Source: Hyphomicrobium zavarzinii ATCC 27496
GTDB lineage: Bacteria; Pseudomonadota; Alphaproteobacteria; Rhizobiales; Hyphomicrobiaceae
DNA length: 64,000 nt
Reading direction: 5' to 3'
Assembly: GCF_000383415.1 (NCBI RefSeq)
Contig: NZ_KB911258.1
Location: forward strand, 454,267-518,266
Below the pieces are notes generated by a model, which saw only the letters and a list, made by a program, of their open reading frames with translations, did not search any database and was not told where the DNA came from. Shown here piece by piece: positions 45,163 to 55,177 of this stretch (position 1 is its first letter; each line of letters begins with the position of its first letter). A program made the position numbers and the translations under genes.

Positions 45163-45615
45163 TCAGGGCGCCGGCCCGAGAGGCGATTGCTCCTGTTTTC
45201 TGCGCTCGGCGTCCGCCCGGGACGCGTTGGTCAGCTGCGTGTCGCCAGCTTTCATGTCTGCCATGAGAGCGCTGAACGCGCTGCTGTCGCCGTAGCCGCA
45301 CCCTTTGCTGTCCGCAGTCCAGACCCCCGTAACCTGCTTGCGGAAGGTGCGCAAGGTCGCGGCGGGATGTGCGGGATGTCCGGGTGCGGAGAAGGCGATG
45401 TGCACGCTCCACGTATCGGGCGCCGAAAGCGTCACCGCCTCGAAGCCGCCCTCTTGCCCGTGCTGGGCGCCGGGTAGCGCGTAGGCCATGGCGCGCAGTC
45501 CCTCGAAGCCGAGGGTGCAGTCGAGCGTCGGAGGGCGGGTATCCTGCGCGGCCGCGCCGCTCACATGAAGAAAAACGAGGCCGCCGAGCCAAAAAGCCTT
45601 GCGGACACGCAGCAT
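45163..45615 (-). CDS. Exported hypothetical protein between purS and purQ
   Basis: This is a 150-residue protein with a signal peptide ([20 protein letters not shown]). The mature domain has Cys in [10 protein letters not shown] and GCGYGDSS, and a run [16 protein letters not shown]. It starts 1 base after the purS stop, so it is co-transcribed and probably translationally coupled with the purine genes although it looks periplasmic. No family is recognised and no purine role is evident. Confidence 0.75.
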
Positions 45616-48212: not shown

Positions 48213-49268
48213 TTATGGAGCCGGCGCCGTCCGCTGTGTCGCAAGGCCCTCGACGATCATCAGCCCCACGGCCGCCAGAATAAGCGCCGTCGACGGGCTT
48301 GGGAACAGCCGCAGCGCTGCCATCTCCGGGACCACAACCCCGATCAGAAAGAGGCCGCCGAGCGCGAGTACGAGCGGAACGGCGGAGGCTGGCGCGAACG
48401 GCTCGCCCGGACGCGCGAGGCTGCGCCGCCTGAGTAGCACGACGAAGGCGAGAGAGGCGAGCATCAGGAGCGTGATGCCCAGGTCGCTGGACGGCAGGTC
48501 GGGCGGCACGGAAAAGAGAAGCCACGGGATCAGAAGCGCACCCATGAGCGCCCAGTGCGCCACCGTGAAGCCGAGCAGAGGCGCCCAGGCCGCCTCCTCC
48601 GTGTCGGCAAGCTGAGGACGGCAGAGTGTAAGCGCGGCCAGCACGGAGATCGTGAGCGCGATGTAGCCTGCAGAAAGCAGCACCGCGGGCGAGCCCGCCA
48701 CTCCGGTCATCTGCGCTTGCGCCATCAGCATCTTCATGAAACTCAGCGCGTGAGGAGCGGCCACCAGGATCCACATGCCGAACCCGATGCCATGGCGCGT
48801 GATGACGGAAGCTAGCCAGATCAAGAAGGCCGTGGCCGCGACGAGAGAGGCTACCACCCCGGCGCGGAACGCGAGACAGGGCTCTGCGACGAGCCCTGAC
48901 GTGATCTGCTCCAGCGCCACGGCGATCCCGTTCGCTTGAAAGGCGGCGATGAGGAGCGCGCACAGTATGAGCCAGCTCCAGAGGCGCGCGCCGTTAGCGG
49001 GGACACGCGACCATCCTCTGAGTTTTGGCCAGGCCATCATCGCAACTTCGGCCAGCATGACCGCGGACAGCAGAGGAATGACGCCGAGCGCCATCAGAGA
49101 GATCCGCTCGACCGGAGGCGCCGAACCACCGGCTTCGAGGAGCGAAGCGGGAACGTTGAGGCCCGGCAGCGGGATGCAGGCACCCAGACGATACGCGGCA
49201 AGCGCGGCGAGCGTGACCGCGATGCGGCGCGACAGGGAACCTTCTGCAAGCGTGATGGTGAGCGTCAT
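48213..49268 (-). CDS. Divergent SecY-like membrane protein
   Basis: This is a 351-residue protein with about nine to ten hydrophobic helices. The N-terminal part resembles SecY: RIAVTLAALAAYRLGACIPL followed by PGLNVPASLL, then ISLMALGVIPLLSAVMLAEV. The region VITRHGIGFGMWILVAAPHA resembles the SecY loop with GIGNG. It is shorter than housekeeping SecY (about 440 residues) and lacks obvious long cytoplasmic loops, and it stands outside any ribosomal protein operon. It is probably a paralogue with altered function. The start at 49268 has a weak ribosome binding site. Confidence 0.7.
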   Translation of the reverse strand: MTLTITLAEGSLSRRIAVTLAALAAYRLGACIPLPGLNVPASLLEAGGSAPPVERISLMALGVIPLLSAVMLAEVAMMAWPKLRGWSRVPANGARLWSWLILCALLIAAFQANGIAVALEQITSGLVAEPCLAFRAGVVASLVAATAFLIWLASVITRHGIGFGMWILVAAPHALSFMKMLMAQAQMTGVAGSPAVLLSAGYIALTISVLAALTLCRPQLADTEEAAWAPLLGFTVAHWALMGALLIPWLLFSVPPDLPSSDLGITLLMLASLAFVVLLRRRSLARPGEPFAPASAVPLVLALGGLFLIGVVVPEMAALRLFPSPSTALILAAVGLMIVEGLATQRTAPAP

Positions 49269-49410
49269 TGATCGTTGCTTTGGTGAGACCCGAATGGGGC
49301 TGGCGAACGCCGGAGCTGATGAGAGCGATCCAAGATTTAATCGCGCTCGGCATCGAAGCATGTTCCGCGCGGCACATGCATGTTGAGCGCCAGTAAGCCA
49401 CGACCCGGCG

Positions 49411-50385
49411 TTAAGGCTCGGACGCTTGCGCTGCGGCTGGCGCGGGTTGGGCCGCAGGCTGCGGCGCCGGGGCGGGTTTCCTGCGGCTGTCCCCCCACGT
49501 GAACAGCCCCACGCCCAGGAGCACGAGGCTCGAGCCGATGGCGTCCGCGAGTGTGAACGGCTCGCCGAGGATCTGGATGGCGAGCCCGATGGTCACGATC
49601 GGCGACACGGTTGCGATCATGGAGACGACCTGGGGCGAGACGCGCGCGAGCCCGGCGTTGACGAGGAACGAAGGCAGCACCGTCGCCACCATGGCGCAGC
49701 CGAACGAAAGCCACAGGAAGCGTGGCGACGCCGCAAAGCTCCCGCTGCCGAAGACCACGTGGTGAAGCACGCAGAAGACGCCCGCTGCCGTGAGCGCGAT
49801 GCTCGTGAACAGCGCGCTGCCAAGCGGCGCGATACAGCGCTTGGCGAGGATCTGATGCCAGGCGAACGAGATGGCCGCGCCGAGCACGAGCGCGGTGCCG
49901 ATCGCCGTGTTGCGGCCGCCTGCGGGCAGATCTACCGCGAACACGATGGCTAGCCCGATGTAGGTGACGACAGCGGCGGCAATACCGAAGCGTGTGAGGG
50001 GCTGGCCATAGAACGCCGCTCCGATGAGCATCACGAACAGAGGGTAGGTGAACAGCACCAGCCGCTCGAGCGCGGCGGTGATGTACTGGAGCCCGGCGAA
50101 ATCGAAGGCAGAGGCCATGTAGTAGCCGAGGAAGCCGACCAGCACGGCCCAGGCGACGCTGGCGCGGTCGGGCGGCGGATCACCTTTCGCGCGGCGCTTC
50201 GCATAGGCCCACAAGCCGATCGCCACGAACACCGGGGTAGCGAAGATCATGCGATAGGCGAGCATCAGCGACGCGTCGACCTGCTCCTGGAAGGCGAGCT
50301 TGATGAAGATCGCCTTGGTCGAGAAGAACGCGGCGCCGAGTGCGGCGCACGTGTAGCCGAAGGCGCGACTGACGGACGATCCCAT
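49411..50385 (-). CDS. EamA/DMT-family transporter
   Basis: This is a 324-residue drug/metabolite exporter-type protein with ten predicted helices in two EamA halves (AALGAAFFSTKAIFIKLAFQ and LVLGAAISFAWHQILAKRCI open them). AGLQYITAALERLVLFTYPL and SMIATVSPIVTIGLAIQILG are typical. A Pro/Ala-rich cytoplasmic tail closes the protein. The substrate is unknown. It is downstream of purB on the same strand, 118 bases apart. Confidence 0.88.
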   Translation of the reverse strand: MGSSVSRAFGYTCAALGAAFFSTKAIFIKLAFQEQVDASLMLAYRMIFATPVFVAIGLWAYAKRRAKGDPPPDRASVAWAVLVGFLGYYMASAFDFAGLQYITAALERLVLFTYPLFVMLIGAAFYGQPLTRFGIAAAVVTYIGLAIVFAVDLPAGGRNTAIGTALVLGAAISFAWHQILAKRCIAPLGSALFTSIALTAAGVFCVLHHVVFGSGSFAASPRFLWLSFGCAMVATVLPSFLVNAGLARVSPQVVSMIATVSPIVTIGLAIQILGEPFTLADAIGSSLVLLGVGLFTWGDSRRKPAPAPQPAAQPAPAAAQASEP

Positions 50386-50503: not shown

Positions 50504-51811
50504 CTAGGGCTCTCCGAACACCCGTTTGAAGATGGTATCGACCTGCTTCAGGTGATAGCCGAGGTCGAACATCGCATCGAGGTCCTTGGCGGCGAGCTTC
50601 GCCGTCACGTCCTTGTCCGCCTTGAGCTCGGTCAGGAAGTCGAGGCCCTTCTCCCACGTCTTCATGGCGTTGCGCTGCACCAGCGCATAGGCTTCCTCGC
50701 GCGAGGCGCCCGCCTGCGTGAGAGCGAGCAGCACGCGCTGGGAATTGTGAAGACCGCCGAGCTTGTCGAGGTTTTTCTGCATGTTCTCGGGATAGACGAC
50801 GAGCTTTTCGATGACGCCCGCGAGGCGAGCGAGCGCGAAATCGAGCGTCACCGTCGCGTCCGGACCGATCATGCGCTCGACCGAGGAATGCGAGATGTCG
50901 CGCTCGTGCCAGAGCGCCACGTTTTCCATGGCGGGGAGAGCGTAGGCGCGCACCATGCGCGCGAGCCCCGTCAGGTTCTCCGAGAGAACGGGGTTGCGCT
51001 TGTGCGGCATGGCCGACGAGCCCTTCTGGCCCGCCGAGAAGAACTCCTCGGCTTCCAGAACCTCGGTGCGCTGGAGGTGACGGATCTCCGTCGCCAGCCG
51101 CTCGATCGACGACGCGACGACGCCGAGCGTCGCGAAATACATGGCGTGCCGGTCGCGCGGGATCACCTGCGTCGAGACCGGCTCGGGAACGAGCCCCAGC
51201 TTCTCCGCTACATAGGTTTCCACGAACGGATCGATGTTGGCGAAGGTGCCGACGGCGCCCGAGATCGCGCAGGTGGCGACCTCACGGCGCGCGGCAACCA
51301 GCCGCTCGCGACAGCGCGCGAACTCAGCATAGGCGAACGCCAGCTTGACGCCGAACGTCGTCGGCTCCGCGTGGATGCCATGGCTGCGGCCGATGGTGAC
51401 GGTCGACTTGTGCTCGTAAGCGCGCACCTTGAGGGCGGCGAGCAGACGGTCGACATCCGCGATCAGGATGTCCGCCGCGCGCACGAGCTGCACGTTGAGG
51501 CAGGTGTCGAGCACGTCCGACGACGTCATGCCCTGGTGCACGAAGCGCGCTTCCGGCCCCACGTGCTCCGCGAGATGGGTGAGAAACGCGATGACGTCAT
51601 GCTTGGTCACCGCCTCGATCTCGTCGATGCGCGCGGTATCGAAGGTCGCCTTCGACCCCTTGTCCCAAATGACCTGTGCGGCCTCCTTGGGAATGACGCC
51701 GATCTCCGCCATCGCTTGGGCCGCGTGCGCCTCGATCTCGAACCAGATCCGGAAGCGTGTCTCGGGCGTCCAGATGGACGCCATCTCGGGGCGTGAGTAG
51801 CGGGGAATCAT
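50504..51811 (-). CDS. purB: Adenylosuccinate lyase PurB
   Basis: This 435-residue fumarase-superfamily enzyme cleaves SAICAR to AICAR and adenylosuccinate to AMP. The signature loop [20 protein letters not shown] carries the mobile catalytic Ser, and [13 protein letters not shown] and [14 protein letters not shown] are the other conserved regions. The start [17 protein letters not shown] matches the family. Confidence 0.97.
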
Positions 51812-52684: not shown

Positions 52685-53902
52685 TCAGTTTTCTCCGATC
52701 CACTGACCGGATCGTGCTGATGCGGCTGCAAAGGCGGCCGCATCCAGGTCTCCGTTCGCATCGAAGACGATTTCGCCGAGCGACGGCGTATCGATCCGTG
52801 CGCCCCTGAGCGCCGGGGCCAGCGTCGCCCCCTCCGTCGAGCCGGTCTTGCCGGCAATTACGGTCCACGCTTCGAAAGCACCCCGGGCTCGTGCCCCCGC
52901 CGCCGTGTCGGTATCCCCACCGTTTGTACGTGCGCCGCGCGACGCCGAGTTGGTCCCCGCACGCGGGGCAGGCTCTCTCGGCAACAGAACCTCGACTCGG
53001 CCCGGCGCCCGTTCTGCAATCCGCGCAAAACCCTCCGTGGCCAGCGCATCGGAGCCGATCAGGGGAATCGCGAGACCCAGCCGTCCGATTGCGGCGACGA
53101 CAATGGCCGCCTCGTCGGGGTAGCCCGCGAACAGCACCGACTCGGCGCCGCTGTCGCGAAGCTGCCGGACCGTCTCCTCGTAATCCCGCTTGCTCGCGAC
53201 GATCGGAAGATTGGCGACCGGCTCCACGCCGGACGCCTTGAGCGCGGCCATGGCCCCGTCCGCGATCCCACGCGCATATCCCGTCCGGTCGTGGATGATC
53301 CCGACGCGCCGCGCCGGTGCATGTGCCAGAAGCCACGCTGCGGCAGCCTGGCCCTGCCGGTCGTCGCGCCCCGCGAGACGCAGCACCGGCACCGGGCCGT
53401 GCGTGCGCGTCACATCGGGGTGGCGCGCGCCGACCGTGATCAGGAGAACGCCCGCCTGTCCGTAAAGCGCCGCCACCGCCGTTGCCGCGCCCGAGCACGG
53501 ATGGCCGATCACAAGCGCAGGCTTTTGCGCAATGAGAACGCTCGCGGCGCCCGCGGCGCTCGCGCCCGCGCAGCCGTCATCCTCGACCAGCAGCGCCACG
53601 CGCTCGCCGAGCACGCCGCCCGCCGCGTTGGCCTCTGCCACCGCCGCTTCGAGCGCGGCTTTCATGGCAAGCCCCGTCCCGGCCATGCGGCCGCTGAGCG
53701 GCACCGCGAGTCCGATGCGGATCTCGGCCGAGGCCGCGACCGGAAACACGGCGGCAAGCCACACGGCCGCGCCGAGCAAAAGCCCTGCGCGCCCTAGGCT
53801 GGCGCCCGCGCGGTCAGTTCTGGACGTAGGTGATCGTTCCGTCAGGCTGAGCTTTCCAGGTGTACATGACGTAGTCGATACGGGTGACGTCGCCCTTCGC
53901 AT
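52685..53902 (-). CDS. Branched-chain amino acid-type ABC transporter substrate-binding protein (second copy)
   Basis: This periplasmic binding protein of the LivJ/LivK (type I) family has IRIGLAVPLSGRMAGTGLAM, GHPCSGAATAVAALYGQAGV and RDDRQGQAAAAWLLAHAPAR. It follows livK and is more diverged, with an Arg/Thr/Gly-rich inserted linker near residue 315. The start is unclear: ATG at 53902 gives 405 residues but overlaps livK by 89 bases. A TTG at 53779 would start inside the signal-like segment AGLLLGAAVWLAAVFPVAAS. Likely export and amide or amino-acid binding are inferred from family. Confidence 0.78.
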   Translation of the reverse strand: MRRATSPVSTTSCTPGKLSLTERSPTSRTDRAGASLGRAGLLLGAAVWLAAVFPVAASAEIRIGLAVPLSGRMAGTGLAMKAALEAAVAEANAAGGVLGERVALLVEDDGCAGASAAGAASVLIAQKPALVIGHPCSGAATAVAALYGQAGVLLITVGARHPDVTRTHGPVPVLRLAGRDDRQGQAAAAWLLAHAPARRVGIIHDRTGYARGIADGAMAALKASGVEPVANLPIVASKRDYEETVRQLRDSGAESVLFAGYPDEAAIVVAAIGRLGLAIPLIGSDALATEGFARIAERAPGRVEVLLPREPAPRAGTNSASRGARTNGGDTDTAAGARARGAFEAWTVIAGKTGSTEGATLAPALRGARIDTPSLGEIVFDANGDLDAAAFAAASARSGQWIGEN

Positions 53903-54929
53903 CGAAGGAGAGGTCGCCGATCACGGTTTTATACGTCTTGCCGGTGTGCAGTTCTGCGGCGACCTTCACGGGATCCACCGAGTTGATGGCCTTCGCGGCT
54001 TCCGCGATCACCTGAACGGCTGCGTAGCTGTAGAGCGTGTAGGCCTCCGGCTTGAACTTGCGCGCCGCGAACTTCTCGATAACGGCCTGCGCTTCCGGGC
54101 GCTTCTGCGGATCCGGGCCGAACGTCATCAGCGTGCCTTCGGTGCCCGGGCCGCCGAGCGCCGCGAACTCGTCGGTCGCGATGCCGTCGCCGCCCATCAT
54201 GACCGCGTTGACGCCCGCGCTGCGCATCTGGCGCAGGATGCTGCCGCCTTCCGTGTGCACGCCGCCCCAGTAGACGACGTCGGCGCCCGACGCCTTGATC
54301 TTCGAAACCAGCGCGCTGAAGTCGCGCTCGCCAGCGTTGATGCCTTCGTAGAGGACCTCGGTCACGCCAAGCGCATTCATCACCTTCTTCGTCTCGTCCG
54401 CGAGCCCCTTGCCGTAGGTGGTCTTGTCGTGGGTGATCGCGATCTTCTTGTCCTTGAAGTGCTGGGCGATGTACTCGCCCGCCACCTTGCCCTGCTGGTC
54501 GTCGCGCCCGCAGGTGCGGAACACGGTGGCGAGGCCGCGCTCCGTGATCTTGGGGTTCGTCGAGCCGGGCGTGATCATCAGGAGGCCATTCTCGGCGTAG
54601 ACGTCGGAGGCGGGCTCCGAGACGCCCGAATTGAAGTGACCGACGACGAAGCTCACCCCTTCGCCGACAAAGGTGTTGGCGACAGAGCGGCCTTGCTTGG
54701 GGTCCGCGGCGTCGTCGCCGAACACCAGCTCCACCTGCTGTCCGTTGAGGCCGCCGGCCGCATTGATGTCCTGGACGGCCTGCTCGGCCCCGTTGCGAAG
54801 CTGCGCGCCGAACACGGCGTCCTTGCCGGTGAACGGCCCCGCGACGCCGATCTTGAGCTTCTGCTCTGCCCCGCAGGAAGCGAGTGCCAGGGTGGCGAGA
54901 AGGGCTCCCGCGAGCTTCACGAGGCGCAT
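53814..54929 (-). CDS. livK: Branched-chain amino acid ABC transporter substrate-binding lipoprotein
   Basis: This is a 371-residue type I periplasmic binding protein with a lipoprotein signal (MRLVKLAGALLATLALASCG, lipid-modified Cys19). Conserved features: KIGVAGPFTGKDAVFGAQLR, NAAGGLNGQQVELVFGDD and VFRTCGRDDQQGKVAGEYIA. The start at 54929 has GGAGG 9 bases upstream; the ATG at 54938 sits directly on the GGAGG. The liv permease and ATPase genes lie upstream on the same strand. Ligand assigned by family and context only. Confidence 0.88.
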   Translation of the reverse strand: MRLVKLAGALLATLALASCGAEQKLKIGVAGPFTGKDAVFGAQLRNGAEQAVQDINAAGGLNGQQVELVFGDDAADPKQGRSVANTFVGEGVSFVVGHFNSGVSEPASDVYAENGLLMITPGSTNPKITERGLATVFRTCGRDDQQGKVAGEYIAQHFKDKKIAITHDKTTYGKGLADETKKVMNALGVTEVLYEGINAGERDFSALVSKIKASGADVVYWGGVHTEGGSILRQMRSAGVNAVMMGGDGIATDEFAALGGPGTEGTLMTFGPDPQKRPEAQAVIEKFAARKFKPEAYTLYSYAAVQVIAEAAKAINSVDPVKVAAELHTGKTYKTVIGDLSFDAKGDVTRIDYVMYTWKAQPDGTITYVQN

Positions 54930-55177
54930 ATGCGACATCCTCCAAAAGGTGCGCCGGCGACCGGAGCACGAATGAGCAACCTGACCATGATCGTTCCGGA
55001 CTTTTCGCCCCGAAGCGTAATCATCGGTCTCTCCGAAGACCTGAGGGTGATCCCGTTCAAAGAGACGCAGCGCGCGGGCCGAAGCCGCGAAACGCGCGCG
55101 ACGACGCCGCCCCCCGGGACCGTCCGCCCACGTTTTTCACTCGAAATGGCGGCGAAGTCACGTCCGATCGGCATACC

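Follow-up and report, generated by a model that had tools for sequence, protein, structure and literature searches.

A SecY-derived paralogue of Hyphomicrobiales with a shortened plug region and cut-back cytosolic loops

In a 64,000-nucleotide window from Hyphomicrobium zavarzinii ATCC 27496, the stretch of DNA analysed here, a reading frame of 351 open codons on the minus strand (48213-49268) codes for a plugless, loop-shortened SecY paralogue of 351 amino acids, as identified by Pfam, profile comparison and predicted fold. We coined the name SecYL for the group of SecY-derived paralogues to which it belongs. The start codon is the one chosen in the initial annotation; an alternative in-frame ATG at 49361, which would add 31 residues, was disfavoured because the N-termini of homologues align to the later start. 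Pfam analyses identified an EamA-family transporter (49411-50385, minus strand) as the upstream neighbour and adenylosuccinate lyase, purB (50504-51811, minus strand), as the upstream border of the insertion site, which bears out the purine-gene neighbourhood and the position outside the ribosomal operon reported for this gene. The next gene downstream, after a gap of 117 nucleotides, codes for a serine hydrolase (PF06821; 47514-48095, minus strand), and the downstream border is an ATPase inhibitor zeta/DUF1476 gene (PF07345; 47090-47428, plus strand). The EamA transporter was not found in some homologous loci. The neighbourhood also contains what we take, by the look of their sequences, to be purC, purS, purQ and purL, which were traced across genomes. 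Between purS and purQ lies a gene for a 150-residue protein (45163-45615, minus strand) with a start that resembles a signal peptide by eye and without a Pfam match at E 0.01; it occupies the same position in 8 homologous loci. Two neighbouring genes on the minus strand (52685-53902 and 53814-54938), which by their look presumably code for tandem branched-chain amino-acid binding proteins, are about 27-31% similar to each other in related loci and have relatives near purB in other genomes.

The 351-residue protein matched the Pfam SecY family PF00344 with 52.8 bits (E = 4.9e-14, cut-off 32.2), and plasmid-borne members of SecYL scored 37.0 and 40.7 bits against the same cut-off. The NCBIfam SecY equivalog model gave 67.1 bits and did not reach its cut-off of 253.6. 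SecY-like sequence had initially been recognised in the first 75 residues and one further segment; this resemblance is real but is not confined there, as it spans all ten helices. The partial impression arises because a single SecYL query aligns with no more than the first half of SecY. With a family profile (A2, built from 18 sequences including the window protein), the alignment to E. coli SecY took in positions 11-349 of the 362 in the profile (E = 4.2e-49). The protein is, as had been stated, about 90 residues shorter than housekeeping SecY (443 residues in E. coli and 453 in the window's genome), a deficit that corresponds to the loss of specific functional loops. SecYL and bacterial SecY (PF00344, TIGR00967) thus share a near full-length profile alignment and the ten-helix fold, together with conserved residues that include R22, P40, P42, G43, L80, P84, Q131, G134, G182, G184, G186 and G213 (E. 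coli numbering).

The AlphaFold model of the window protein (mean pLDDT 85.6, pTM 0.83) contains ten membrane-length helices, so that the complete ten-helix SecY fold is predicted to be retained. All 33 Foldseek matches at E ≤ 0.001 were SecY/Sec61 entries, and the best structural alignment, to Thermus SecY, gave a Z score of 25.3 with an rmsd of 3.7 over 327 residues. A distant member, L114 from genome G435, was also modelled as a SecY fold at a lower confidence of 82.6. In the model of the window protein the plug region is shortened, and short helices persist in it. A missing SecY profile match and a fold unlike that of SecY had been named as outcomes that would speak against homology; both were looked for, and both results favour it. 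YidC was absent among the 50 Foldseek matches listed, which comprise SecY/Sec61 and weak unrelated entries, a result that does not exclude an Oxa1 core; its absence among the VIA matches listed likewise proves nothing.

To locate the missing residues, we compared 24 SecYL sequences in an alignment with 13 ordinary SecY sequences; the latter include those of E. coli and of the window's genome and are otherwise drawn largely from the same order or class. Left out of the 24 were a copy that runs off its contig (G048), a truncated copy from Rhizobium tumorigenes, a remnant from Neorhizobium galegae and another three Shinella records, relatives of the included one. The connection between TM1 and TM2b (49098-49154, minus strand), in which most of the plug (TM2a) is missing, has a median length of 19 residues (range 10-24) in SecYL compared to 30 in SecY. 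The C4 loop between TM6 and TM7 (site at 48594-48626, minus strand) is reduced to a median of 13 residues (12-32) compared to 35, and its median number of Lys and Arg residues falls from 7 to 2. Likewise, the C5 loop between TM8 and TM9 (site at 48390-48419, minus strand) has a median of 14 residues (7-36) in SecYL and 39 in SecY. Both loops are short in the window protein, and some single members keep a longer, different loop (C4 up to 32, C5 up to 36). The C-terminal tail is 9 residues long compared to 16, and the column of E. coli R357 holds Arg in 13/13 SecY and in 2/24 SecYL, R357 thus being lost in 22 members. SecYL is almost certainly a distinct group whose plug is largely missing and whose C4 and C5 loops are cut back. 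In SecY, C4 and C5 dock SecA and ribosomes, and R357 acts in SecA-driven transport. Since these loops are cut back and R357 is mostly gone, SecYL is unlikely to dock the ribosome or to be driven by SecA, and therefore not a second general translocon; very probably it is not a SecA- or ribosome-driven translocon at all. As features that define a translocon fail despite the homology, we classify SecYL as a SecY variant and not as a second SecY.

The group has acquired residues of its own. Glu74 in TM2b (49047-49049, minus strand; E. coli position 93) is Glu in 24/24 SecYL and Gln in 13/13 SecY; Trp166 in TM5 (48771-48773, minus strand; position 188) is Trp in 23/24 SecYL and Ser in 13/13 SecY; and Trp228 in TM7 (48585-48587, minus strand; position 275) is Trp in 23/24 SecYL and Ile in 13/13 SecY. 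None of the 13 SecY proteins carries E93, W188 or W275. Position 334 is Arg in 19/24 SecYL compared to Ala in SecY, and Ser76 is found in all 24 SecYL but also in 2 of the 13 SecY. The columns 82, 86, 191, 278 and 408, which we take to be the pore-ring positions of E. coli SecY, hold Ile in 13/13 SecY and in just 8, 2, 2, 4 and 8 of the 24 SecYL, respectively, the remainder being mixed and mostly other hydrophobic residues. Positions 93, 188 and 275 lie seven or three residues from ring positions 86, 191 and 278, presumably on the cytosolic side judging from the run of the helices. From helix periodicity and these ring positions, we infer that Glu93, Trp188 and Trp275 share helix faces with the pore-ring residues, which suggests a funnel that is re-lined and probably narrowed.

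In a maximum likelihood tree of 39 proteins, all 24 SecYL fell to the same side of a branch supported at 100/100, and the split between SecYL and SecY was present in all 200 bootstrap trees. Genera g1 and g8 each formed one group, and copies from other families formed another together with the Rhizobiaceae plasmid copies (100/99). The finer branching order is unsure because some long branches join (the g37 pair and SecY; G423 and Shinella), and the tree does not fix the position of the root; four rows are of unusual composition. SecYL is constrained but fast-evolving: dN/dS was 0.17 (G068/G072), 0.17 (G104/G103) and 0.35 (two Shinella copies) in close pairs, and between the window's genome, G000, and G002 it was 0.42 at a dS of 1.1, compared to 0.11 for the hydrolase. 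Mean identity among SecYL proteins was 0.34 in the N-terminal half and 0.21 in the C-terminal half, compared to 0.75 and 0.71 in a SecY set drawn mostly from the same order or class. The suggestion that the gene is a relic of a duplicated secY in the course of decay draws on its shortening and fast evolution, and on the truncated copy of 181 residues and the short remnant found on Rhizobiaceae plasmids. Such decay is barely credible given the dN/dS of 0.17-0.35 in close pairs, the nearly invariant family-specific residues and the separate grouping from SecY, on which we reject it; nor was a SecYL remnant found in the gap between purB and the hydrolase of five SecYL-lacking loci (best E 0.34). 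The open frames of the 24 members are not independent evidence because members were selected as open frames. A membrane protein with a new role, the other option in the initial annotation, fits the evidence.

Within the window's family, matches extending past the first half of SecY were found in 19/103 genomes: 6/8 of the same genus, 6/8 of g8, 2/2 of g5, 1/1 of g14, 2/6 of g37, 1/22 of g11 and 1/4 of g4. The two same-genus absences may reflect a missing locus since both assemblies are fragmented and lack the DUF1476 gene as well. Searching a sample of 397 genomes of the order with a C-terminal profile revealed at least 9 SecYL, six of them in the window's family and the others in G248, G294 and G435. 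One more, in G423, came from a later C-terminal profile (A6), and all these counts are lower bounds. Because A6 also catches ordinary SecY, SecYL was scored by the absence of loop insertions. Genomes G241, G271, G291 and G460 gave two matches each. Four Shinella plasmid records carry SecYL, annotated as hypothetical or left without annotation; a further plasmid copy occurs in Sinorhizobium sp. RAC02, and the truncated and remnant copies lie on plasmids of R. tumorigenes and N. galegae, respectively. All named carriers belong to Hyphomicrobiales. No SecYL was seen beyond this order among the matches listed from 385 genomes of the class and 398 of the phylum, searches in which a distant SecYL could be missed. 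In G423 (L138, 348-1523, plus strand), SecYL converges on a phage portal gene (PF04860, 286 bits), a setting that may belong to a prophage or a gene-transfer agent. The distribution of SecYL in Hyphomicrobiales is patchy, and its presence in 19/103 genomes is as compatible with an accessory or conflict function as with a role in biogenesis.

The window's genome codes for one full SecY (G000:C7, 398.5 bits), the second secY whose presence had been marked for checking, and for one SecE (G000:C7:99410-99574) and one SecA. One full SecA was found in each of 10 carrier genomes searched; a second, weak SecA_DEAD match in 9 of them spans 65-107 positions of the profile, within frames that are 707-770 residues long, and we read these matches as other helicases. 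SecA2 was not found in the window's genome or in the 10 carriers. One SecE each was detected in 9 of the 10, and its absence from the search of G011 is taken as a search or assembly miss. The scores against the SecY2 models (25 bits for TIGR02920, cut-off 249.6; 28.2 bits for NF009082, cut-off 353) together with the missing SecA2 rule out a SecY2 system, in line with the initial annotation. Accessory SecY2, which is described from Gram-positives (PMC12445088), resembles SecYL as a second SecY-like protein beside the housekeeping one; SecYL differs in falling far below the SecY2 cut-offs and in lacking SecA2.

These data bear on two ways in which SecYL could still serve the Sec pathway. A divergent SecY2-like accessory translocon might use the housekeeping SecA and SecE for special substrates, a reading compatible with the SecY fold, the shared ancestry and the weak SecY2 matches; with most of the plug, C4 and C5 missing, R357 kept in just two members and SecY2 scores at about a tenth of the cut-offs, we regard it as highly improbable. 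Alternatively, SecYL could take SecE (or SecG) and thereby tune or replace SecYEG under some condition. SecE presumably binds near TM1 and the GxGxG segment before TM5, which are among the best conserved parts of SecYL, and 9 of the 10 carriers searched have a single SecE. However, the SecE contact surface includes TM6 and TM10, and part of it thus falls in the fast-evolving half, which leaves such a modulator of the housekeeping Sec system decidedly unlikely.

In 18 of the 19 carriers of the family, a PF06821 serine hydrolase gene follows SecYL on the same strand, no more than 2 kb downstream; the exception is G048, whose contig ends at this point and whose genome gave no PF06821 match. The SecYL stop overlaps the hydrolase start by 4 nucleotides in G020 and G103, while G020 and G081 carry the two genes away from the pur genes. 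A membrane protein acting with the hydrolase, for example by presenting a lipid or peptide to it, would fit this arrangement. However, in the seven SecYL-lacking loci read the hydrolase adjoins DUF1476 (7/7), with purB within 5 kb in 6/7; the hydrolase is thus part of the site even where SecYL is absent, which weakens a pairing based on neighbourhood. In the g8 genomes, moreover, SecYL and the hydrolase are some 0.9-1.7 kb apart, with other reading frames in between. A functional partnership between the two is therefore very unlikely. In two of the g8 loci (L028 and L102), the intervening frames lie on the opposite strand and resemble outer-membrane beta-barrel proteins by eye, and G066 apparently has two copies of such a frame. 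The gap between purB and the hydrolase in G102, G105, G067, G070 and G074 showed no trace of SecYL and contains other reading frames, some of which, in L093-L097, we take by eye to be glutathione S-transferase- or DJ-1-like. In G067 (L095, 6428-7002), the hydrolase is divided between two frames, which could reflect a disrupted gene or a faulty assembly. The site between purB and the hydrolase seems to be one with a turnover of accessory genes.

Plasmid copies have a different setting. On plasmid pBSY16_2 of RAC02 (L164, 80000-99600), SecYL is located inside an immunity-like gene island, followed by genes annotated as TPR and YcxB and accompanied within 20 kb by DUF3396, SMI1/KNR4 and two DUF1963 genes. 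Upon Pfam analysis, DUF1963 exceeded its cut-off in the one copy scanned, SMI1_KNR4 (SUKH-1) reached 23.6 of 25.4 and TsiV 19.9 of 25, and the YcxB-annotated protein had no Pfam match. In Shinella, a DKNYY gene precedes SecYL and a YcxB gene follows on the other strand, both over the Pfam cut-off, and the Neorhizobium remnant lies beside an annotated DUF1963 gene. We assume DUF1963, DUF3396, YcxB and DKNYY to be immunity-like families. In G248, G294 and G435, on the other hand, the neighbours are regulatory, transport or metabolic genes; no immunity-like island was seen at the chromosomal SecYL loci read, and no toxin gene was recognised by Pfam beside the window gene, the other Hyphomicrobiaceae loci being covered by BLAST matching to genes of the window. 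PADLOC gave no match.

These plasmid loci, few as they are, together with the use of SecY by contact-dependent inhibition (CDI) toxins, suggest that SecYL could be a non-conducting look-alike of SecY that binds or blocks agents, be they toxins, phage proteins or others, that use SecY as a port through the inner membrane. Two CDI toxins enter via SecY, and with the TM7 substitution S281F cells are fully resistant to one of them and partially to the other (PMC7858069); the corresponding column holds Ser in 4/24 SecYL. SUKH arrays are described as polyimmunity loci (PMC3482391), and the RAC02 copy resembles these in standing among immunity-like genes. Fast evolution and a patchy, partly plasmid-borne spread also fit. 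Against this, all but a few of the immunity proteins known to that source are cytoplasmic globular proteins whereas SecYL is a membrane protein, and of the families concerned its accessible text mentions just SUKH, not DUF1963, YwqG, DUF3396, YcxB or DKNYY. The SUKH and TsiV matches of RAC02 stay below their cut-offs, its YcxB-annotated protein is unsupported by Pfam, and the contexts of the other copies listed above point elsewhere. Immunity by decoy is thus unlikely in our view, and the specific form in which SecYL is a sealed, loopless natural Sec decoy against SecY-using toxins or phage proteins is distinctly improbable.

The best explanation overall, to which we assign a probability of roughly 40%, is that SecYL is a distinct SecY-derived paralogue with a lateral, motor-free role. 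The protein would then work laterally and not as a through-channel. Its actual job is tentatively that of a lateral chaperone or insertase: ungated and motor-independent, it would assist certain membrane segments much as YidC does, by means of its remaining polar residues (Glu74, Gln111 and often Arg282) and of TM2b and TM3, the half of the lateral gate that is conserved. We rank the YidC-like chaperone or insertase as first choice and the Sec decoy as the bolder one, and no single job has more than about one chance in three. The comparison with YidC/Oxa1 insertases concerns the proposed mode of work only, which would likewise be ungated, plugless and motor-independent; SecYL has ten helices compared to the three-helix core of Oxa1. 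A working plugless SecY fold is plausible because, as Lewis and Hegde argue (PMC8675477), the ancestor of SecY may have lacked both plug and gating, and because plug deletions, as they note, are tolerated. A common origin of SecY and YidC is argued for in the same paper. Several observations speak against this explanation. The rapid evolution of the C-terminal half extends to TM7, which forms one wall of the lateral gate, and a surface that binds clients would not be expected to change so fast. Longer C4 or C5 loops in single members mean that the loops are not lost everywhere. Finally, the isoleucines of the pore ring have been replaced by mixed, mostly hydrophobic residues.

Among the matches listed from a full-text literature search, whose coverage mostly excludes subscription journals, we found no description of such a SecY-derived protein. 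To our knowledge, SecY is universal. It is normally kept whole, and SecYL is a constrained natural group that has lost the larger part of the plug together with the loops for motor docking. It thereby offers a test case for the capabilities of a SecY fold that has no motor, and for whether a plugless, ungated SecY is workable, as proposed for the ancestor (PMC8675477). Should the decoy reading prove true, SecYL would represent a new way to resist toxins that hijack the export channel.
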